NCBI GenBank assembly: GCA_945883495.1
Contig: CAMCXS010000016.1
Span: forward strand, 1 to 64,000
Origin: Akkermansia muciniphila
GTDB lineage: Bacteria > Verrucomicrobiota > Verrucomicrobiia > Verrucomicrobiales > DEV007
Reading direction: 5' to 3'
DNA: 64,000 nt
In this document: positions 32,433 through 52,553 of the stretch, piece by piece
How positions within the stretch are numbered: position 1 is the first letter of the stretch
How the letters are laid out: the number at the start of each line of letters is the position of its first letter
Notes under the pieces: model-generated
The model's database searches: none
What the model saw: only the letters and a program-made list of their open reading frames with translations
Told to the model about the DNA's origin: nothing
Translations under genes and position numbers: made by a program

Positions 32433-32448
32433 GTGACGAAATCGTCAC
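32433..32448. promoter_or_regulatory. Palindrome upstream of the envelope-machine locus, possible operator
   Basis: GTGACGA and TCGTCAC form perfect seven-base arms around AA, and a TTGACA hexamer starts two bases later (32450). It lies about 180 bases before the two-partner-secretion transporter gene, the first gene of the locus. A convincing -10 at 16-18 bases is not present, so I report a symmetric element rather than a promoter. Confidence 0.4.
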
Positions 32449-32629
32449 CTTGACAGATACACATCAGATGGTGCCGCATGAAACCGTCATGGGCAGGCAA
32501 CTTTCACAAAATTGTCTTTGGAACAGCTCGAAACCTCACTATAGGTGGCTCTGGGACCACCTCACCTTTTGAGGATTTTAAGGAAGTGAACGCCTTAACG
32601 CTGCCCAAAGGTCTGCGTTTTTTAAAAAT

Positions 32630-34399
32630 ATGTTTTCCGGTCAACAACGACGGCTATTGGATGGTGGTCTGCCCGTTCCTGGGTTGCCCGCCCTCTTGGC
32701 TCTTTGCTTGTTGTCCGCCAGCAGCCGGGCAGAGACTCCCATGCCTTTACCGCCCCCGCCCGCGCCGGACTTTGGCGACAATTCGCTCCCCTCTGCGGAT
32801 GCTGCCTCTAGCGAGGCGGAGGCAGAATTCCGCTTCTTCGTGAAGCAGATCCGGGTCAACGGCTCTAAACTCCTGACCAATCCGGAGATTGAAACAGTCA
32901 TCTATCCGTTCCTTGGACCGGGCAAGACCTTAGAAAGCCTGGAAGAAGCTCGTGCGGCGTTGGAGAAAGCCTACCGCGACAAGGGCTACCAGACCGTGAC
33001 TGTTGAACTTCCCCAACAGAACGGAACGCGTGGCATCATTTACATGAACGTGGTTGAAGGCCGCATCGGGCGGGTCACGGTCAAGGGAGCTCGCTACTTC
33101 TTGCCTAGCGAAATCAAGCGGGCCGCCCCTTCATTGGCCGAAGGCACCGTTCCGAACTTCAACCAAGTTACCAAAGACCTTGTGGCCTTGAATGCTTGGC
33201 CGGAGCGGCAAGTGAGTCCCTCGATTCGTCCCGGCGCTGTACCGGGCACCTTTGACGTCGATCTGGAAGTGAAGGACAAAGCACCTCTCCACGGCAGCCT
33301 GGAACTCAACAACCGTTTCATCACCAACACCACCGAGTTGCGCCTGGATGCCTCGGTGAGCTACGCCAACCTCTGGCAAAAAGGTCACACCTTCGGTCTG
33401 TCCGCCCAGGTTGCCCCGAACAATACGGATGATTCCATGGTCGTTTCGGGTTTCTACCTCGCTCGATTCCCCCAGCTATCCAAGTTCTCCCTCCAACTGA
33501 TGGCGTCGAAACAGGATAGTTTGATCGGAACACTGGGGGGAGTCGCCTCGGTCGGCGCTGGCTCCACGATGGGGCTACGCGGCATTGTTCAGCTCCCAAC
33601 GCGTGGGAGCTACTTCCATTCTGTAAGCGCCGGTTTTGATTACAAGGCATTCGATAACACCCCAGTTGAGCTAATCGAATTTAGAAAACTCAATCAAGAA
33701 GCCCGTGATTTCCTGAACCCCGAATTTGAAACTCCGTTGATCTGCTATTACCCAATCAACATTGCCTACAGCGCAGGATTGACAAAGAAGAACTCATTTA
33801 CAGAGTTTAATTCGGCATTGCAGTTTCACCTGCGCGGCGTGGGCAGCGACATTTCCACCTTCTTGGACACTCGATACCCGTCCGATGGTTCGTGGGTTTC
33901 CTTACGCAGTGACGTCGCCCACACCCAGGACCTTCCCAAAGGATTTCAGGTATTCGGCAAATTTCAAACCCAACTGACGAATGACGCGCTGATTCCCAAC
34001 GAACAGTTTGTCATCGGTGGTGTATCCACGGTGCGCGGCTACCCCGAGGCAAGTGTCCTCGGCGACAACGGTTGGGTCTTCAACTTCGAAGTTCGCACTC
34101 CTTCTCTCATTCGAGCCAACGGCCAGTCCGAGGGCGGCACTCCCGATAATGAACTCCGATTCCGTACCTTCTTCGATGCCGGTACGGTCTACGTGAACGA
34201 AGTGCTTCCTGAGCAAACTGAGACGTTCGAGCTAGCCAGTTTCGGGTTCGGAACCACCATCGACCTCGCGAAGAATTTCCACGGGAATTTAGACCTTGCT
34301 TGGCCTCTGACTACGCAGGGGATCACCCCCAACACGCCATCAGGCAGCCCCCGCCAGCACGAACCTTTCCTGAGTTTTCAGGTCGGATACGATTTTTGA
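32630..34399 (+). CDS. Two-partner-secretion-type outer-membrane transporter (FhaC/ShlB/HecB family)
   Basis: A 589-residue outer-membrane protein of the Omp85 superfamily, TpsB branch. A signal peptide (LPALLALCLLSASSRA) precedes a Pro-rich linker, an ShlB-type POTRA domain (about 65-150, with IRVNGSKLLTNPEIE and LEEARAALEKAYRDKGYQTV), a second POTRA (about 150-215) and a 16-strand-type barrel. The L6 motif is seen as IGGVSTVRGYPE, and the final residue is the phenylalanine of a barrel signal (VGYDF). TpsB proteins export a large TpsA partner, but no TpsA-like gene is adjacent. Instead the next five genes encode an energising complex, a porin-like barrel and a coiled-coil protein on the same strand. 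Its cargo is unknown. Confidence 0.87.
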   Translation: MFSGQQRRLLDGGLPVPGLPALLALCLLSASSRAETPMPLPPPPAPDFGDNSLPSADAASSEAEAEFRFFVKQIRVNGSKLLTNPEIETVIYPFLGPGKTLESLEEARAALEKAYRDKGYQTVTVELPQQNGTRGIIYMNVVEGRIGRVTVKGARYFLPSEIKRAAPSLAEGTVPNFNQVTKDLVALNAWPERQVSPSIRPGAVPGTFDVDLEVKDKAPLHGSLELNNRFITNTTELRLDASVSYANLWQKGHTFGLSAQVAPNNTDDSMVVSGFYLARFPQLSKFSLQLMASKQDSLIGTLGGVASVGAGSTMGLRGIVQLPTRGSYFHSVSAGFDYKAFDNTPVELIEFRKLNQEARDFLNPEFETPLICYYPINIAYSAGLTKKNSFTEFNSALQFHLRGVGSDISTFLDTRYPSDGSWVSLRSDVAHTQDLPKGFQVFGKFQTQLTNDALIPNEQFVIGGVSTVRGYPEASVLGDNGWVFNFEVRTPSLIRANGQSEGGTPDNELRFRTFFDAGTVYVNEVLPEQTETFELASFGFGTTIDLAKNFHGNLDLAWPLTTQGITPNTPSGSPRQHEPFLSFQVGYDF

Positions 34400-34418
34400 C
34401 TATAGCCTACCACGCCTC

Positions 34419-36419
34419 ATGACGATATCAGCTCTCCCAACGTTTCGATTGGCCCGAGCCATCCAGCGTTTCCTCCTGCTCTCGCTGGTGGCCGCAGCCA
34501 CAGCCCATGCTGCCGACGATCACGGAGGAAGTGCTGCCGGCTGGTGGGACAAGGCATGGGCAATTCGCAAGCCCGTAAACTTGACCCCGGCCTCTGGCGC
34601 GGAACCAGCCGGTGCCAACCTCGTCCTCTTGCGCCTCCACGCAGGTAACTTTCAATTTGGAGCCGCCAAAGAAGACGGCAGTGACGTCCGGATCATCGCG
34701 GAAGACGGCAAGACCGAATTGCCCCTTCACTTTGAGCGCTACGACGCGTTGATGAACGAAGCCCTCCTCTGGGTCCTGATCCCAGAGATCAAGGCAGGGG
34801 CTACCACTCACCTTCATCTCTATTATGGCAATCCCGAGGCGCCCGCTTCCACCATCAGCGCGAAGGACAGCTTCCCGTCTACCGCCTCGCTGATTTATCA
34901 CTTCACAGATCGCGGTGCTCCAGCCCGGGACTCATCCGTCAATGGCAACTCCTCAACCACCGCGCCTGCGGTAACCGAAGGCGCACTGATCGCTGGCGGC
35001 ATCCTCCAATTCGGCACGAACGGCATTGATGTGCCCGGGTCAGATTCCTTGAAATGGGGCGCCGCGGCCGAGGTGACCATTTCCGCCTGGGTGAAGCCAA
35101 CCGCCCAAGCGGCGGGCGGCGCCCTCTTCAAGCGGGTGGACGGTGGTTCCTCGTTCGTGCTCGGTGTCGATTCCGGCATTCCCTACGTCGAGATCAAGGA
35201 TGGCTCGGGAACGGCGCGCACCGCGCCAGGTGAGGCGATCGCCGTCGGAGGCTGGAAACACCTCGCCGTCGTTGCGTCCACCACCAAGACCGATCTCTAC
35301 GTCGGGGGCAAGCCCTACGGCTCCATCCCCAAACCAATGCCTGCCCTGGCCACGCCGGGCACGATCGGGGGATCGATCGATGCCGGTGGCGGCTTCACGG
35401 GAGAGGTCGATGAATTCCAAATCCACAATGCAGCGCTCACCGCTGGCACGATTAACTTTCACGCCATCGCCGAGTCGGGCAGTGATGAAGCTCTCAAGAT
35501 GGTCGAGGTTTTGGAGGACGAGGGATCTGGGGGAACCTCTCACCGCCCGGAGTGGGTCGAGCATATTCTTCTTTTCGGCGACATTGCGGAGAAGATGAAG
35601 TTCGACGGTTGGGTAGCCGTCGCGCTTTGCGCCGTGATGATCGTGCTCAGCTGGTGGATCTCCATCGTCAAGTTCCTCTATCTGAATAGCATTCAGAAGG
35701 GCAGTGACATGTTCTTGAAGGAATGGCGCAAGCTCTCAGCGAGCCTCCACAAGCTCGACATCCACGATGAGGAGGGCCTGCAGACGCTGGGCGGCAATGT
35801 CTCTCGCGCGGCGCTCCACCAGATCAAGAAATCTCCGATTTATCATCTGTATCTCATCGGTTTTGAAGAAATCCGTCATCGGGCAAATGGTTCCGGCCGC
35901 CCGACTCTCTCTGCCCGCTCCATGCAGGCGATCAAGTCCGCCTTGGATTCCGGCTTGGTTCACGAGAGCCACAACATGACCGGCGGGTTGATTCTCCTCA
36001 CCATCAGCGTGGCTGGTGGTCCCTACATCGGTCTTCTCGGAACCGTTGTCGGGGTTATGATCACCTTCGCCGAGATCGCCAAAACCGGCGAGGTCGAGGT
36101 GGCCGCCATTGCGCCCGGTATCGCATCCGCGCTCCTCGCGACCACGGTCGGCCTGATCGTGGCGATCCCGGCACTCTTCAACTACAGCTACCTGAACACC
36201 CGCATCAAGGTGCTCCTTAGCTCCATGACCGTCTTCATTGATGAGTTCATTACGAAGTCTGCGGAAATTTTCCCGGAGCAGCCAGATTCCTCGCTTCCCC
36301 CGGCTCCACCCGCTCCGCTTCCACCGGCATCGCCAGTGGCCCCATCAATGCCTAGCCGTCCCGTCAGCTTCGGTCCTGGCGTTACACCTGGGCCGGCTCC
36401 AGCCGCTCCTGCGGAGTAG
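34419..36419 (+). CDS. DUF2341 + LamG-like domains fused to an ExbB/TolQ proton channel
   Basis: A 666-residue inner-membrane protein. After a signal peptide (FLLLSLVAAATAHA) comes a DUF2341-type domain (about 40-145, WWDKAWAIRKPVNLT and HLYYGNPEAP), then a concanavalin/LamG-like domain (about 155-345, with VTISAWVKPTAQ, HLAVVASTTKTDLYVGG and FTGEVDEFQIHNAAL). A membrane helix at about 402-425 (VAVALCAVMIVLSWWISIV) starts an ExbB module whose core is PYIGLLGTVVGVMITFAEI and GIASALLATTVGLIVAIPAL. The C-terminal tail is Pro/Ala-rich. So an extracytoplasmic glycan-binding-type region is joined to the motor channel. ExbD and a TonB-like gene follow at short gaps. A role in sensing or gripping a periplasmic polymer is inference. 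Confidence 0.88.
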   Translation: MTISALPTFRLARAIQRFLLLSLVAAATAHAADDHGGSAAGWWDKAWAIRKPVNLTPASGAEPAGANLVLLRLHAGNFQFGAAKEDGSDVRIIAEDGKTELPLHFERYDALMNEALLWVLIPEIKAGATTHLHLYYGNPEAPASTISAKDSFPSTASLIYHFTDRGAPARDSSVNGNSSTTAPAVTEGALIAGGILQFGTNGIDVPGSDSLKWGAAAEVTISAWVKPTAQAAGGALFKRVDGGSSFVLGVDSGIPYVEIKDGSGTARTAPGEAIAVGGWKHLAVVASTTKTDLYVGGKPYGSIPKPMPALATPGTIGGSIDAGGGFTGEVDEFQIHNAALTAGTINFHAIAESGSDEALKMVEVLEDEGSGGTSHRPEWVEHILLFGDIAEKMKFDGWVAVALCAVMIVLSWWISIVKFLYLNSIQKGSDMFLKEWRKLSASLHKLDIHDEEGLQTLGGNVSRAALHQIKKSPIYHLYLIGFEEIRHRANGSGRPTLSARSMQAIKSALDSGLVHESHNMTGGLILLTISVAGGPYIGLLGTVVGVMITFAEIAKTGEVEVAAIAPGIASALLATTVGLIVAIPALFNYSYLNTRIKVLLSSMTVFIDEFITKSAEIFPEQPDSSLPPAPPAPLPPASPVAPSMPSRPVSFGPGVTPGPAPAAPAE

Positions 36420-36439
36420 TATCAACCGGATAAACCTTC

Positions 36440-36844
36440 ATGCAGGCAGGCGACGACAAGAGCTTCGACGATATCAACGTCACCCCGATGGTAGACCTCT
36501 ACCTCGTGTTGCTGTTGATCTTCATCATCATGACCACTGCCGGCGTTCAAGGGGTCAAGGTGGATCTCCCCAAAGGCAGCAAACAACCCGCCAAGGACCT
36601 AGCAGGACCTAAGGGCAAGGCCGTGACCGTGAACAATGAGGGAAAAATTTTCCTCGATACCGTGCCTGTCACACTCGAACAGCTTGAGGCTAAGCTCAAC
36701 GAGCACAAGTCACAGAATCCGGATTTCCCCATCGTCGTCCGGGGAGATCGCGCCACGCAATACCAGGGCATCATGGATGTTCTGGACGTGATCGGCCGGG
36801 TGGGAATCACCAAGATCGGCCTCGCGACTCAGCCGCCAAAGTAA
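36440..36844 (+). CDS. exbD: ExbD-type biopolymer transport protein
   Basis: A 134-residue ExbD. The single membrane helix is preceded by FDDINVTPMVDLYLVLLLIF with the conserved aspartate at residue 18, and the periplasmic domain carries GKIFLDTVPVTLEQL and IVVRGDRATQYQGIMDVLDV, both typical. It begins 20 bases after the DUF2341-LamG-ExbB gene, which must supply its channel partner, and is followed by the TonB-like gene after 26 bases. This makes a self-contained ExbB-ExbD-TonB set separate from the one at the left edge of the window. Confidence 0.93.
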   Translation: MQAGDDKSFDDINVTPMVDLYLVLLLIFIIMTTAGVQGVKVDLPKGSKQPAKDLAGPKGKAVTVNNEGKIFLDTVPVTLEQLEAKLNEHKSQNPDFPIVVRGDRATQYQGIMDVLDVIGRVGITKIGLATQPPK

Positions 36845-36870
36845 CCAGTCACCGTTTCGCAGACGCGCCC

Positions 36871-37587
36871 ATGACCGCCAACTTCGACAACGAGGAAGAA
36901 TTTTCCTTCGCCCAGCACGGCGCGAAGATTGTTGGTCTTTTTCTCTTAGCGGCAGGTGCCGGGGCCTTAGTCGGCTGCGGAAAGAAGGAAGAACCAAAGA
37001 AATCATCGGTGAGAATGGTGGACTTGGCTTTGCCGCCGCTCCCCCCTCCTCCACCACCTCCTCCTCCGCCACCTCCGCCGCAGCAGCAGCCGGATCAACC
37101 GCCTCCAGAGGAAGAGGTTCAACAGTTTGTAGAGGAGACCGCGACGGACAGCGCACCGCCAGAGCCTGACCCAGCTCCTGCCGACAGTGAGCCAATGGCT
37201 ACCGGGGTGACTGGGGATGGGCCGCCGGATGGCTTTGGACTCGGATCCAGGGGCGGGGGCATGGGTTTCGGAGGCGGGAAAATTGGAGGCAGCGGTCGCA
37301 AAGGCGGCAGCAAGTACGGCTGGTATGCTGGGAAGGTCCAGACGGCCATCGCGGATGCTGTACGTTCCAATGATGCAACCCGTTCCGCAGTGATGAGCAT
37401 CCAAGTAAAAATATGGGCTGATGCCACCGGACGGGTCAGCAAGGCTCAGTTAGTCAGCTCAACGGGGAACCCGGAAATCGATAGTGCCCTCCGCAACGAG
37501 GTGCTTCGCGGTCTCCGCTTGCCTGAACCACCGCCCGCAGACATGCCGATGCCCATTAACCTTCGGATATCGGCACGCAAGCCATAA
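36871..37587 (+). CDS. tonB: TonB-like energy transducer with proline-rich linker
   Basis: A 238-residue protein with an acidic N-terminus, one hydrophobic segment (IVGLFLLAAGAGALVG, 20-35), a run of about 13 prolines followed by Gln/Pro/Glu-rich linker, a glycine-rich stretch (about 115-150) and a C-terminal TonB-type domain (about 155-238) with MSIQVKIWADATGRVSKAQL and IDSALRNEVLRGLRLPEPPP. TonB carries energy from ExbB-ExbD to outer-membrane proteins. Unusually, the hydrophobic segment ends in LVGC (Cys36), which fits a lipobox; it could be an anchor helix or a lipoprotein signal. No TonB-dependent receptor is adjacent; the likely outer-membrane partners are the TpsB and porin-like neighbours. 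Confidence 0.83.
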   Translation: MTANFDNEEEFSFAQHGAKIVGLFLLAAGAGALVGCGKKEEPKKSSVRMVDLALPPLPPPPPPPPPPPPPQQQPDQPPPEEEVQQFVEETATDSAPPEPDPAPADSEPMATGVTGDGPPDGFGLGSRGGGMGFGGGKIGGSGRKGGSKYGWYAGKVQTAIADAVRSNDATRSAVMSIQVKIWADATGRVSKAQLVSSTGNPEIDSALRNEVLRGLRLPEPPPADMPMPINLRISARKP

Positions 37588-37613
37588 GTTTTCTCGCCAT
37601 CTCTCCAAGTATC

Positions 37614-39506
37614 ATGCCTTTGTTAACGCGTACATCTTCGTTGTGCTCCCTCAGGGCCCATCTCTCCCGGATGGCATTGGTGGTCGGGCTTATGGCCACC
37701 GCTCCAGCTCAGGAGCTCCCCTCTCCATTTGGCGCCCAAGAAGCGCCGGCGCCTGACGGACTGGGACCAGCACCGCTGACAAATGGTCTTTTCCCTACAG
37801 GTGACCTTCAGCTCGAACCTCCGCCGTCCTTGGAAGCATTTCAAACGCCGGCTTCCGCCGCTCCACCGGTTGTAACGGGTAGCGTCGTCGTCAACCTTAT
37901 CAACCACCTCGTTGCCAAAGGCATTCTCAGCCAGGGAGACGCGGCGGACATGATGATCCAGGCCCAACAAGAAGCGCAGGTTCACAACCAGAACGCCGCA
38001 ACGGCTGCGCTTGTCGCCGAAGATATGACCCTGACCTCCGATGAGGATGTCGTCGTCAGTTATGTCCCTGAGCCAGTGAAGGCTCGTATGCAGGCGGAAA
38101 TCAGCCAACAGGTGCTCGCCCAAGCCAAGGCGGAAGCCTGGGGTGCATCAAACTCTCCGGAGTGGGCCAAAAACATGCGCTTCTTCGCCGATTTCCGGAC
38201 ACGAAACGATTTCACTGTCTTCCCCGACGGCAATGAAGCCACCGGCTCCTTCCCAGATTTCAACCGCATCAATCGGGGAGAACCCTACGACATCACGGGA
38301 ATCGTCTTTTCCCCGCAACGGAACGTGGAGGAGAATCGGAATCGGCACCGGATTCGGGCTCGCTTCGGCGCGGAGATGGATCTGGGGGATGGATTCCTGT
38401 TTGGCGCCCGGATTGCCACCGGCAGTGATATCAGCCCGGTGAGCACAAACCAAACCCTCAGCGGAGAATTTGGAAAATACCAACTCTGGCTTGATCAAGC
38501 CTTCCTCCGTTGGCACGGCGGCACGGATCAAACTGGATTGAAGGTTACCGCGGGACGCATGCCCAACCCCTTTTTCCGGACAAGTGTCAATATGTGGGAC
38601 GATGACCTGAATTTTGATGGCTTGGCCGTTCAGCTGAACCACCACCTCAACAGCCGCGTCTCTCCCTTCCTCAATGCGGGTATTTTCCCGGTCTTTACGA
38701 GCCTCTTCGATCAACCTTTCAACAGCCCGGACAAGGCCGACACTCTCGACAAATGGCTTCAAGCTCTTCAAATCGGGGCCAAGCTTGAAGGCGACGAAGA
38801 CAACGTAACGGCACAGTTGGGCGCGGGCATCTTCCACTTTGATAACATTGAGGGCAAGTTCTCCGATCCGTTTCTTCCCCTTACCGTCCTTGACGCCGGG
38901 AGCACTGACGACCGACGGCCCTCCTTTGCGCAGAAAGGCAATAGCTACATGCCGCTCAGGGTCATCATTCCAGATCCGCTCAATGATTTCGGAACATCGA
39001 AACAATGGCAGTATTTCGGCTTGGCTTCAAAGTTCAATATTCTCGCCTACAATGCCCGCATCGATTTCAACTTCTTTGAACCATTCCAGATCTCTATGCT
39101 CGGAGACATCTCCACCAACCTTGGATTTGATGCGGACGACATCGATCGCAAAGCCATAGCTACCAACCGGGGTCCGGTTACAGCTGAAGATCCTCTTGGA
39201 CGTTTCGATGGTGGCGCCAACGCCTGGAACCTCGGTCTCCACGTAGGCCCTCAGGCCCTGACAAAGAAGGGTGATTGGGACGCCCACATTGGATACCGCT
39301 ATATCGAATCTGATGCCGTGGTCGATGGCTTCAACGATTCCGCGTTCGGTCTGGGCGGCACCAACATGGAAGGCTTCACCGTCGGTGCTGGAATGGCCGT
39401 AACTCCCCGGATCAACCTCAACCTGCGTTGGATGGGAGCCTCGGAAATCGCCGGCCCGCCCCTGAAATCCGACGTCATTCAATTCGACATCAACGCGCGA
39501 TTCTGA
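37614..39506 (+). CDS. Putative outer-membrane porin
   Basis: A 630-residue exported protein. After a signal region (RMALVVGLMATAPAQ) and a Pro-rich stretch comes a helical, coiled-coil-like part (about 85-185, INHLVAKGILSQGDAADMMI) and then a long beta-barrel (about 190-630) with alternating aromatic strands such as RHRIRARFGAEMDLGDGFLF and LKVTAGRMPNPFFRTSVNMW, ending FDINARF with a terminal phenylalanine. The pattern fits the 'putative porin' group (PF16930-like). It starts 27 bases after the TonB-like gene and is followed after nine bases by the coiled-coil gene, so it is part of the same module and may be the outer-membrane channel served by it. Confidence 0.8.
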   Translation: MPLLTRTSSLCSLRAHLSRMALVVGLMATAPAQELPSPFGAQEAPAPDGLGPAPLTNGLFPTGDLQLEPPPSLEAFQTPASAAPPVVTGSVVVNLINHLVAKGILSQGDAADMMIQAQQEAQVHNQNAATAALVAEDMTLTSDEDVVVSYVPEPVKARMQAEISQQVLAQAKAEAWGASNSPEWAKNMRFFADFRTRNDFTVFPDGNEATGSFPDFNRINRGEPYDITGIVFSPQRNVEENRNRHRIRARFGAEMDLGDGFLFGARIATGSDISPVSTNQTLSGEFGKYQLWLDQAFLRWHGGTDQTGLKVTAGRMPNPFFRTSVNMWDDDLNFDGLAVQLNHHLNSRVSPFLNAGIFPVFTSLFDQPFNSPDKADTLDKWLQALQIGAKLEGDEDNVTAQLGAGIFHFDNIEGKFSDPFLPLTVLDAGSTDDRRPSFAQKGNSYMPLRVIIPDPLNDFGTSKQWQYFGLASKFNILAYNARIDFNFFEPFQISMLGDISTNLGFDADDIDRKAIATNRGPVTAEDPLGRFDGGANAWNLGLHVGPQALTKKGDWDAHIGYRYIESDAVVDGFNDSAFGLGGTNMEGFTVGAGMAVTPRINLNLRWMGASEIAGPPLKSDVIQFDINARF

Positions 39507-39514
39507 GAAAGACC

Positions 39515-40237
39515 ATGCACTCACCGAACTTCGTTTCCGCCTACTTCCGCACCATGGTCGCCATCACCTTGGCGTGTCCGGCCATCTCCCAAGCGCAGGA
39601 GGAAGTCTCCCCTGTCGAGTTGAAGCTCCGCGAAGCTCTACGGAACTCGATGATCCAACAACGCACTGTCGAGGGCGAACGCGCCCGCCTGGATGCCGAG
39701 CTCCAAGCGCTTAAAGTCCAGAGCGAGCGCCAAATCGCCGATCTCAAACGCGCGCTCAGCGAGGCGACCAAACAAGCCGATTCCGACAAGGCGGTTGCGG
39801 ATCAAAAACTCAAGGAAACGACCGAGCGCCTCAAAGTGGCCGAAGGTCAGGTAGGGGCTCTGGCGGCTTCACTTGATCAGTGGAAAGCCTCGCACATCCA
39901 GCTCTCCGACATCACCCGGAAGAAAGAAGCAGACCGCGCTAAACTGGAAGCAGAGAATGTGGATCTGAAGAACCTCGTGAAGGACCGCGAGCGCCGTAAT
40001 CTGGAACTCTACGAAACGGGCAAGGAAATCCTCGATCGCTATCGGTCCTTCGGCCTCGGCAAAGCAATTTCAGCCCGCGAACCCTTTACCGGGCTCGCCA
40101 AAGTGAAGCTGGAGGAGCAGGTTCAGGGATATCAAAACCAGCTTGCTGATGGCTTTGTGAAGTCCGGAGAGCCTGCGCGAGTCGAGGCCATCCGCTCCGA
40201 TGCTCCGGCAGCAGAGGTTTCTGCGGCAACCCCGTGA
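39515..40237 (+). CDS. Exported coiled-coil protein of unknown function
   Basis: A 240-residue protein with a signal peptide (TMVAITLACPAISQAQ) and then an almost continuous predicted coiled coil from about residue 35 to 175 (heptads in RTVEGERARLDAELQALKVQ and RKKEADRAKLEAENVDLKNL). The C-terminal part (180-240) has GLGKAISAREPFTGLAKVKL. No enzyme motif. It is the last gene of the TpsB-ExbB-ExbD-TonB-porin run, separated from the porin gene by nine bases, and its length could let it span part of the periplasm, like the adaptor proteins of other envelope machines. That role is inference. Confidence 0.75.
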   Translation: MHSPNFVSAYFRTMVAITLACPAISQAQEEVSPVELKLREALRNSMIQQRTVEGERARLDAELQALKVQSERQIADLKRALSEATKQADSDKAVADQKLKETTERLKVAEGQVGALAASLDQWKASHIQLSDITRKKEADRAKLEAENVDLKNLVKDRERRNLELYETGKEILDRYRSFGLGKAISAREPFTGLAKVKLEEQVQGYQNQLADGFVKSGEPARVEAIRSDAPAAEVSAATP

Positions 40238-40444: not shown

Positions 40445-41365
40445 ATGATTGCCCAGGAGTTTGAAACCGCTGAAGACCGCGCCATCCAAAAACTCGCTGA
40501 GTCTCCCTTCCTCCGAACTTGGAAGAGAGCCTTCGCTTTGGCAACGGGACTCGAAGCGGAACTGATTGCGGCAGAGGGTCACGAGGCCACGAGCTGTCAA
40601 GACAGCCGCACGGCCAACCCATTCTGCCGGTCGCTTCAGGCGTCCCAGGGATGCCAGGCATGCGTGGCGACTCGGCAATCTCTCTGGCGCGATGCCGCAG
40701 ATCGCGCCGCTACTACAAAGTGCTTCGCGGGCATGCGCGAAGCCGCCGTTCCGGTCCGCGTTGGAGATCACGCCATCGCCTATCTGGTGGCAGGGCAAAT
40801 CTTTGACCACAGCCCAACCACCGAGGACTTCACCCCAGTTGAAGCTCGCTTGCGACGCGACGGATTCACCGGGGAGCAAATTGCCGAACTACGTGAGGCC
40901 TACGCCGCGAGCCCGGTCATGGAAGTGTATCGGTTCCAAGCCGCCACCACCTTGCTCGTCGCCTTCTCCCTCCAACTGGCGGCCGAACTGAATCGACTCC
41001 TTCTGGCAGAGGAGAATGTCGAGTCCCCTGCCATTTGCCGCGCCAAGCAGTACATCAACGCGCATCTGGACGAGCGGATCTCCCTCGACGACGTGGCCGC
41101 GCATGTCTGCGTCAGTCCGTTCTACTTCTGCAAGATCTTCAAGCAGGCCACCGGTATGACTCTCACGGAGTATGTCAATCGACGCCGAGTGGAGTGGGCC
41201 AAGCGCAAACTCCTCAATCCGCATGCCCGGGTCACCGAAGTGGCGTTCGATGTCGGCTACCAATCTTTGTCACAGTTCAACCGCAGCTTCCTGAAGTACG
41301 CGGGAGAATCTCCCACCAAATTCCGGGAACAAGCGCACACGGATCACATCTGCGAAGCCGCCTGA
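40445..41365 (+). CDS. AraC-family regulator with PocR sensory domain
   Basis: A 306-residue regulator. Residues 15-165 are a PocR-type ligand domain with its cysteine pattern (FCRSLQASQGCQACVATRQ, then KCFAGMREAAVPV and YLVAGQIFD). Residues 205-300 hold the double helix-turn-helix of AraC proteins: ISLDDVAAHVCVSPFYFCKI and VTEVAFDVGYQSLSQFNRSF. PocR domains are thought to bind small hydrocarbon-type ligands such as 1,3-propanediol and may sense metal or redox state through the cysteines. It stands before a run of stress-related genes on the same strand and may control them; this is inferred from position only. Confidence 0.9.
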   Translation: MIAQEFETAEDRAIQKLAESPFLRTWKRAFALATGLEAELIAAEGHEATSCQDSRTANPFCRSLQASQGCQACVATRQSLWRDAADRAATTKCFAGMREAAVPVRVGDHAIAYLVAGQIFDHSPTTEDFTPVEARLRRDGFTGEQIAELREAYAASPVMEVYRFQAATTLLVAFSLQLAAELNRLLLAEENVESPAICRAKQYINAHLDERISLDDVAAHVCVSPFYFCKIFKQATGMTLTEYVNRRRVEWAKRKLLNPHARVTEVAFDVGYQSLSQFNRSFLKYAGESPTKFREQAHTDHICEAA

Positions 41366-50529: not shown

Positions 50530-50660
50530 CGCCATCCGTGGCGACGACAGGAAATAAGGGGGAATCCAGTGAAAAACTGGAGCGGTACCGCCACCGTGTG
50601 AATGCCAACATCCGTTCGCGGACGAGGGATTCGAGCCGGGTCGCCTGCCTGAGGAAAGTC
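50530..50660 (+). ncRNA. Cobalamin riboswitch upstream of btuB
   Basis: The leader carries the conserved blocks of the cobalamin (RF00174-type) riboswitch in order: AAGGGGGAATCCAGTG (50554-50570 region) with its pairing partner ACTGGAGCGG, the CCGCCACCGTGTGAA core, and the B12 box GAGCCGGGTCGCCTGCC at 50633-50649. Adenosylcobalamin binding should lower btuB expression. After the B12 box, CCAG and CTGG (near 50666-50681) can form a small stem just before the ribosome-binding site GGAGG, so control of translation initiation is likely. The outer boundaries are approximate. Confidence 0.93.
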
Positions 50661-50696
50661 AACCACCAGCGGAATCACTGGAACCGGAGGCACTCT

Positions 50697-52553
50697 ATGA
50701 AGCACAACTATTCCATCCTCGTGGCGGGCGCCGCGTGGGGCACGCTTTTCGTGTCCGCGCTTGCGCAGAACCCATCGTCTGAAAAACCTTCCTCGGCTCC
50801 GAGCTTGGAGCCCGTGGTGGTCAACGCGACCAAAATCCCCCAACAGCTGGAGGACGTCGGAAGTGCCATCACCGTCCTTCCCCGGGAAGATCTGGATCGC
50901 AGCCAAACTCGCCGGCTGGAAGATGCCTTCCGCTTTGTCCCCGGGGCCGTTCTCGTAACTTCGGGGCAAACGGGCGCCATTTCCTCCCCAATTCTGCGCG
51001 GCGCCAACCCAAATCAGACGCAAATCGTCGTCGACGGCATCCGCATCAGCGACGCCAACATCAACCCGGACGTGTTCCTCGGCGGCGAGCAAATCGGTTT
51101 GCTCCAAACAATCGAAGTCCTTCGCGGTCCCCAAGGCGCGCTCTACGGCGGTGAAGCCATCGGCGGCGTCATCAACATCGTGGCTCCACGCGGTTCTGGT
51201 GCACCGGCGTCCACGTTCGACGTCCTTGCAGGCTCGTTCGGCACCTTCAGTTCTCAACTGACTAGCGCGGGCGATCTCCAGTCGCTCAGCTACTCGTTGT
51301 CCACCGGTTGGAACACAACCGCAAACGACCGCCCCCACAACGACTTCGCCAACCTCTTCCAAGCGGTGCGGATCGATTTCCCGTTGAACGAGTCCACCAC
51401 CGTGGGCTTCACGTACAGGGGCGCCCAACGCTCCTACCAATCCCCGGGAACGATCTTCGAGAACGATCCCGACAACATCGAGGAAGAGGAGTTTCTCCTA
51501 CTCACGGCCTACATCGATCATGAGCTCTCCGAGCATTGGAATAGCAAACTGGTAGGCGGCTGGCTTCATCAAGACCTCGGATTCGTCGCGCCCCCTTGGC
51601 CCGAGAGCATCATCGATCACCGCAAGCTCGCGTTCGATTGGCGCAACACCTTCACCTGGAACGAAGCCCTTACGACCCTCATCGGCACCGGCTACGAAAC
51701 CCGGGACATGACCAACACCGGCTACGGCTCGGTCACGGCGTCCGATGCCCTCGTTTCTCTCTACGCCGATCAAGTGATCTCCCTCGGGGACCGACTCTCC
51801 CTCACCGGCGGCGGCCGCTGGGAAAGCTACCGTTCCATTGGAGAAGCCCTTACTTGGCGAGGAACAGCCGCGTATCACCTCAAAGGAAGCGGCACGACCT
51901 TCCGGAGCAGCGTCGGCACCGGTTTCCGGGCGCCCTCGTTCTTCGAGCTCTATGCGCAAGACGCATTCTTCACCGGCAACCCTGGGCTGACGCCAGAGGA
52001 ATCGCTCGGCTGGGACGCTGGGATCGCCCAGAAGATTGGCGAGACAGGCACCCTCGCCTTGACTTGGTTCGACAACGACATCTCCGACCTCATCGTCACC
52101 GATTTCGCCACAGTGCCCCTCTCCGTCGTCAACTTGGCGAGCGCCACGACCACCGGCGTCGAAGCGGAGTTCGCGGGCACCTGGCAAGACCGGATTTTCT
52201 ACCGCTTGGCTTACACCTACCTCCAGGCTGAGAATGCCGAAACAGGCGAACGCCTCCTCCGCCGCCCCAAACACACTTTTGGTTTTGACGTCAACACCCG
52301 CATCGCGGACCGGCTCACCGTCGGTGTCGGCGGTCAACTGATCGAGGACCGCCTCGACATCAATCCCGTCACCTACCTTCCGGTCAACGGCGACAGCTAC
52401 TTCCTCGGCCGGGTCTACAGTGCGCTACAAATCACCGACACCATCCAGGCACACCTCACCGTGGAAAACGTTTTGGATGAACAATACGAGGTGATCGCCG
52501 GTTTTCCCGGTCGTGGCCTGGGCGTGTTTGGCGGTCTTCGATTAACCTTTTAG
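50697..52553 (+). CDS. btuB: TonB-dependent cobalamin receptor
   Basis: A 618-residue outer-membrane receptor. A signal peptide (SILVAGAAWGTLFVSALAQ) is followed by the TonB box-like EPVVVNATKIP, the plug domain (about 45-155, with ILRGANPNQTQIVVDGIRIS and IEVLRGPQGALYGGEAIGGV) and a 22-strand-type barrel ending GVFGGLRLTF with a terminal phenylalanine. GTGFRAPSFFELYA is a typical receptor block. The cobalamin riboswitch directly upstream and the divergent btuFDC-cobU operon define its ligand. The ATG at 50697 follows GGAGG at seven bases. The TonB set that energises it could be either of those in the window. Confidence 0.94.
   Translation: MKHNYSILVAGAAWGTLFVSALAQNPSSEKPSSAPSLEPVVVNATKIPQQLEDVGSAITVLPREDLDRSQTRRLEDAFRFVPGAVLVTSGQTGAISSPILRGANPNQTQIVVDGIRISDANINPDVFLGGEQIGLLQTIEVLRGPQGALYGGEAIGGVINIVAPRGSGAPASTFDVLAGSFGTFSSQLTSAGDLQSLSYSLSTGWNTTANDRPHNDFANLFQAVRIDFPLNESTTVGFTYRGAQRSYQSPGTIFENDPDNIEEEEFLLLTAYIDHELSEHWNSKLVGGWLHQDLGFVAPPWPESIIDHRKLAFDWRNTFTWNEALTTLIGTGYETRDMTNTGYGSVTASDALVSLYADQVISLGDRLSLTGGGRWESYRSIGEALTWRGTAAYHLKGSGTTFRSSVGTGFRAPSFFELYAQDAFFTGNPGLTPEESLGWDAGIAQKIGETGTLALTWFDNDISDLIVTDFATVPLSVVNLASATTTGVEAEFAGTWQDRIFYRLAYTYLQAENAETGERLLRRPKHTFGFDVNTRIADRLTVGVGGQLIEDRLDINPVTYLPVNGDSYFLGRVYSALQITDTIQAHLTVENVLDEQYEVIAGFPGRGLGVFGGLRLTF

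Follow-up and report, generated by a model that had tools for sequence, protein, structure and literature searches.

A conserved six-gene machine of the PdtAB type in Verrucomicrobiota, with its own ExbB–ExbD–TonB genes and an unlinked candidate giant cargo

The closest described system is the two-partner secretion (TPS) cluster of Pseudomonas aeruginosa, a part of the PUMA3 regulon, which has the published gene order pdtB–exbB2–exbD2–tonB4–PA0696–PA0697 (PMC2729926, PMC4971064, PMC7035377). The promoter PphdA serves phdA, pdtB, exbB2D2, tonB4 and PA0696–PA0701 (PMC4971064, PMC7035377). PA0696 is a putative porin, the function of PA0697 is not known, PA0698 is YbjN-like and PA0699 is a PPIase; PdtAB was reported as a functional TPS system, and the Ton genes there were called uncharacterised (PMC4971064, PMC7035377). 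Because Llamas and colleagues described the tps–exbBD–PA0696 association in 2009 for Pseudomonas, Burkholderia, Rhodopseudomonas and Janthinobacterium (PMC2729926), the type of locus analysed here was already known, and the combination of normally separate systems that the initial annotation had pointed out is not novel as such (PMC2729926, PMC7035377). Unlinked tpsA copies have been published for R. palustris (PMC2729926), so that linkage of tpsA to tpsB is not a strict criterion for two-partner secretion. What is new here is Verrucomicrobiota as a phylum of this functionally unexplained TPS–Ton locus type. Probable further additions are a DUF2341–LamG–ExbB form of ExbB, the exact company of DUF3739 and full-length Porin_5, and an unlinked cargo.

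We analysed a window of 64,000 nucleotides, the whole stretch of DNA under study, and found six tightly packed genes on the + strand at 32630–40237 (Table 1). The intergenic gaps are 19, 20, 26, 26 and 8 bases, which bears out the initial description of six genes on one strand with gaps of 30 bases or less. The start given there, 32433, has to be moved: the first start codon lies at about 32630, some 200 bases further on, and 32433–32629 is the upstream region that follows folD (ends 32386). Downstream of the coiled-coil gene, the next long open reading frame encodes an AraC/PocR-type regulator (40445–41365); YbjN, PPIase or VreAIR genes were not seen beside the machine, as we call the six-gene set. 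When compared with the P. aeruginosa PdtAB cluster through its published order, the locus agrees with it in all six functions, in their order and in having a large TpsA cargo, but differs in its phylum, in the unlinked TpsA and in the regulator downstream. Sequences of proteobacterial relatives were compared using Klebsiella, Burkholderia and Cupriavidus in place of P. aeruginosa PAO1 PA0690–PA0697. On this evidence the six genes very probably supply the machine part of a PdtA/PdtB-type two-partner (type Vb) secretion system.

Table 1. The six genes of the machine in the window
Product	Position	Strand	Basis of assignment
TpsB outer-membrane transporter, PdtB-like	32630..34399	+	Pfam POTRA_2 and ShlB/FhaC barrel (E 6e-17, 8e-17)
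DUF2341–LamG–ExbB	34419..36419	+	Pfam DUF2341, Laminin_G_3 and MotA_ExbB
ExbD/TolR-type stator partner	36440..36844	+	Pfam ExbD 2e-28
TonB-like energy transducer	36871..37587	+	Pfam TonB_2 5e-10 (C-terminal domain)
Porin_5 'putative porin', PA0696-like	37614..39506	+	Pfam E 4e-169, match over full length
Secreted coiled-coil protein, PA0697-like position	39515..40237	+	Without Pfam family; every complete locus has a homologue in this place

The product families proposed earlier (TpsB, lectin–ExbB fusion, ExbD, TonB-like protein, porin and coiled-coil protein) were all upheld, by Pfam matches in every case except the coiled-coil protein, which has no family. A profile of 13 TpsB relatives matched CdiB (6wim, E 5.5e-28) and FhaC; the window TpsB is 41–51% identical to the TpsBs of other machines and at most 31% identical to the other TpsBs of the phylum. 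The N-terminal part of the ExbB protein consists of DUF2341 and LamG (a ConA-like lectin domain) and is predicted to be secreted or periplasmic, and each complete locus has a full-length homologue in that place. The TonB-like protein has one transmembrane segment and a poly-Pro/Gly spacer, with relatives at the same position. A lipobox-like LVGC follows its transmembrane segment and is probably due to chance, since it is absent from the aligned relatives. The coiled-coil protein has a signal-peptide-like N-terminus and a conserved C-terminal EPF....V motif, and its profile search matched unrelated coiled coils only. Structure models of TpsB and the Porin_5 protein, built from three input sequences, reached a mean pLDDT of about 30 and were discarded.

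Conservation of the six-gene order as one unit had been set beforehand as the check, and the order was found to be conserved. When 289 genomes of the phylum were searched using the ExbB fusion as query, ten gave matches. Complete six-gene loci with the same order and strand were present in seven (G179, G252, G140, G125, G255, G085 and G013), which represent four families other than that of the window; the TonB of G255 was identified by hand. The locus of G216 is cut by contig ends, and G269 has just a shorter ExbB with ExbD, with neither TpsB nor porin beside them. The near relatives REEB427 and V1-115 showed the same order, the V1-115 locus being split over two contigs, and a scan of genome contigs with one query sequence gave three close loci. 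The order is kept across Verrucomicrobiota of five families. In three genomes a PEP-CTERM-type protein of about 270 residues is encoded upstream of the machine (L033, L035 and L036 loci, one match being below cut-off), and in two others TSP3-repeat proteins are found there.

The order was also seen on alpha-, beta- and gammaproteobacterial plasmids and held in most of the plasmid loci examined. Porin and ExbB fusion occurred together in eleven plasmid records, with full or near-full sets in Methylosinus, two Klebsiella, two Cupriavidus, two Burkholderia and two Variovorax. Exceptions were an Aquabacterium plasmid, in which TpsA lies between TpsB and the motor and there are two ExbD genes, and a Methylomagnum plasmid with scattered machine parts. 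On one Klebsiella plasmid (L050, 3584–5250) TpsB is split into two open reading frames of 216 and 337 residues with the other machine genes intact and IS elements nearby, whereas TpsB is whole on another (L051).

The initial annotation had regarded the transporter as lacking its TpsA cargo, and this idea had to be corrected. Each of the seven complete Verrucomicrobiota loci is followed immediately by a same-strand gene for a TPS-domain protein of 3,576–3,851 residues, with a PPIase gene intervening in some (PPIase was seen in G252 and G125); TpsA also adjoins the machine in Methylosinus, K. quasipneumoniae, Variovorax and Aquabacterium. The genome of the window has four TPS-domain proteins, none of which adjoins the machine. 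One of them, on contig C76 (G000:C76:1171-12582, − strand; the machine is on C16), has 3,803 residues with a TPS domain (PF05860 9e-18, TIGR01901 2.7e-16). It scored 1851–2768 bits against the machine-linked TpsAs and at most 62 bits against the other three TpsAs of the genome, indicating that it is their orthologue; the idea of an exporter without cargo was rejected. The candidate cargo carries DUF3739 at residues 3618–3728 (2.6e-31), a domain also found in the Klebsiella TpsA, followed at the C-terminus by the short conserved peptide ISVEVIGYGG; a peptide of the ISVEV(I/L)GYGG type and a similar module end most of the machine-linked TpsAs examined, from Verrucomicrobiota and Proteobacteria alike. 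The TpsA of G125 (C42, about 222 kb) appears to be frameshifted, since its DUF3739-bearing C-terminal part is in another frame, and for that reason it does not carry the shared C-terminal peptide. A possible link to Akkermansia mucin-uptake loci was dropped, the g2 genus (genomes of 2–3 Mb) being without the machine.

Machine, DUF3739 and full-length Porin_5 were each present in the same nine of the 289 genomes (G000, G179, G216, G252, G255, G013, G085, G125 and G140). The classes were well separated: full-length Porin_5 proteins scored 564–649 bits and all other Porin_5 matches in the 289 genomes were partial with at most 127 bits, while machine TpsBs gave E 5e-110 or better and other TpsBs 1e-32 or worse, with no machine TpsB on the broken contig of G216. 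The naive chance of one such coincidence is 3e-17, or 6e-11 when counted by genus (six genera of 153); both figures are too small because the genomes are related, although five families are involved. TPS domains were found in 39 of the 289 genomes and 30 of these 39 were without the machine, which argues that ordinary TPS does not need it and that the machine belongs to one TPS subclass. Support in a TpsB tree was too weak to tell whether the machine TpsBs form one clade. Collectively, these data indicated a real, conserved, single machine whose cargo was found.

The motor appears intact at the residue level. In an alignment of 16 relatives the ExbD motif N-[VI]-TPMVDL with its channel aspartate is invariant, and the ExbB channel motifs GGPYIGLLGTV (GTV) and APGIASALLAT (LLAT) are kept in all 16 sequences. 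We considered whether these Ton genes are merely co-regulated neighbours of the TPS pair, serving ordinary TonB-dependent receptors or Tol-like envelope maintenance under shared regulation. All nine machine genomes have TonB-dependent receptors (2–15 each), and among NCBIfam families the ExbB and ExbD subunits match TolQ and TolR best, albeit with scores under the cut-off; both observations favour this explanation. It does not account for the exact co-occurrence with the DUF3739 TpsA and full-length Porin_5, nor for an order conserved across phyla, and we consider it quite improbable. The genome itself encodes 11 MotA/ExbB proteins, four TonB-dependent receptors and two other TonB_C proteins; the latter, on C12 and C20, lie beside ExbB/ExbD genes, so the motor of the operon looks additional and a role for receptors alone is disfavoured. 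The motor is thus probably not just a stray receptor motor, though receptors occur in every machine genome, so that its use need not be exclusive. The initial annotation was correct that the operon has no TonB-dependent receptor, but one of the genome's four receptors is encoded in the window; its view of a motor not tied to distant receptors agrees with the TonB proteins on C12 and C20 but has to be set against the receptors in all nine genomes.

This locus speaks to the open question of how very large proteins are moved by TPS exporters that have no source of energy. According to a review of TPS, type V secretion needs no energy from outside, and ExbB is left unmentioned (PMC5422565); the statement of the initial annotation that known TpsB exporters are not energised by TonB agrees with this. 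Like the classical systems FhaB/FhaC, ShlA/ShlB, CdiA/CdiB and HMW1, the machine and its cargo combine POTRA domains, a ShlB-type barrel with the RGY motif, an NPXG-type N-terminal TPS domain and very few Cys in the cargo; the dedicated Ton motor, porin, coiled-coil protein and cargo-terminal DUF3739 are additional here. In the TpsBs about 8–36 residues separate the apparent signal peptide, judged by eye, from POTRA1, and compared with FhaC several members of the family seem too short in this stretch for an H1 plug helix, which would fit another gating mechanism. Ton systems that serve TonB-dependent receptors share with it the complete motor, the conserved residues of the channel and the TonB-type C-terminal domain, but the set described here has no receptor, ExbB has a DUF2341/LamG extension, and TpsB, Porin_5 and the coiled-coil protein are its constant company. 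HxuCBA of Haemophilus influenzae resembles it in that a TPS pair is encoded with a Ton-related gene; HxuC, however, is a TonB-dependent haem receptor and not a motor, the reverse of a motor without a receptor.

We lean slightly towards the explanation that a PdtAB-type machine with a dedicated motor serves the export or display of the giant TpsA. It builds on the gene set, its order, the identity of the cargo, the co-occurrence and the intact motor residues, all taken from sequence, and from these we infer the partner of the TonB arm and the step that is powered. TpsB would export one giant FHA-like TpsA of about 3,800 residues that ends in DUF3739 and ISVEVIGYGG. ExbB–ExbD–TonB would be its dedicated Ton motor, whose periplasmic arm may reach an outer-membrane partner of the same set: the POTRA domains of TpsB, the Porin_5 protein, or a TpsA C-terminus held in the periplasm. 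The proton motive force could then be spent on export, anchoring or release of TpsA, where we place the motor because its closest companions are TpsB and the DUF3739 subclass of TpsA. That the motor drives a step of this cycle is, in our judgement, evenly balanced. Against it, liposomes have been shown to take up TpsA in a reconstituted system free of external energy (PMC5422565), and no experiment ties an ExbB–ExbD–TonB set to TPS transport. The 30 TPS-domain genomes that do without the machine and the unlinked TpsA of the window genome also count against it. Insertions in P. aeruginosa tonB4 (PA0695), tpsA and tpsB all gave no zebrafish virulence phenotype (PMC2729926); the tonB4 result is uninformative since tpsA and tpsB insertions were equally without effect. 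A bolder form, which we regard as doubtful, is that of a TPS subclass powered by proton motive force, in which the Ton motor would pull on TpsB, the special porin or the DUF3739 C-terminus and so finish export or extend and retract the fibre.

The main rival to motor-driven export is ligand import through the porin. Here the giant surface TpsA would capture a ligand such as a phosphate-rich polymer, glycan or metal complex, and the Ton motor would gate Porin_5 for uptake. Of the outer-membrane barrels, Porin_5 most resembles a channel for uptake, and the full-length version, whose helical N-terminal part is predicted to be periplasmic, occurs only with the machine; the ConA-like lectin domain on ExbB points the same way. 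The Porin_5 profile had no match among PDB sequences. Neither a plug nor a TonB box could be assigned to Porin_5, which speaks against gated uptake. Phosphate-related neighbours recur, with PhoU, an OmpR-type response regulator, a CHAD protein and a metallophosphoesterase upstream of the machine in G013 (C11, ~53–57 kb) and alkaline phosphatases, a PBP-like protein and PhoU on the Methylomagnum plasmid, and the P. aeruginosa cluster is under PhoB/VreI control (PMC4971064). This context is nevertheless patchy: there were no pho genes around the other machine loci examined, and searches upstream of the operon or TpsA gave no Pho box signal in the window or its Verrucomicrobiota relatives and one weak proteobacterial case, uncorrected for 28 tests. 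Since no ligand is known either, we view import as unlikely, also that of a glycan as suggested in the initial annotation.

A sensory use was also weighed, in which the motor would inform an anti-sigma factor of the state of the giant TpsA (secreted, bound), by analogy with cell-surface signalling. VreA/VreI/VreR in P. aeruginosa suggest it, as do an STN-domain protein, a sigma factor and a FecR-domain protein beside the Methylosinus machine. VreA, however, is dispensable for sigma activity (PMC7035377), and no sigma/FecR pair was present in the flanking genes examined of Verrucomicrobiota machine loci. A FecR–LamG protein is encoded just upstream of the window genome's own TpsA (G000:C76 13491–14999), which would favour signalling, but the gene may belong with its DUF1501 and PSD1 neighbours. 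We regard a sensory role as very improbable.

Returning to motor-coupled export, a dedicated Ton motor, porin form and cargo C-terminus in one phylum and several proteobacterial classes suggest that some TPS may be coupled to a motor. If true, a proton-powered TPS subclass would be an exception to the rule by which external energy plays no part in type V secretion. DUF3739, full-length Porin_5 and DUF2341–LamG–ExbB could serve as markers for further cases; we found no literature on DUF3739 together with TonB.

Other Ton and TPS genes were observed in the window and its genome. The TonB-dependent receptor in the window (Plug and barrel, 50538–52553) is about 10 kb from the machine, with no sign of a link between them, and a second MotA/ExbB–ExbD pair is present at 1–1251 (MotA_ExbB match 265–609, ExbD-like 793–1251). 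The two other TpsBs of the genome are on contigs C7 and C29, and C22 carries adjacent genes for two more giant TPS-domain proteins (about 2,600 and 3,390 residues), neither of which is of the DUF3739 type.
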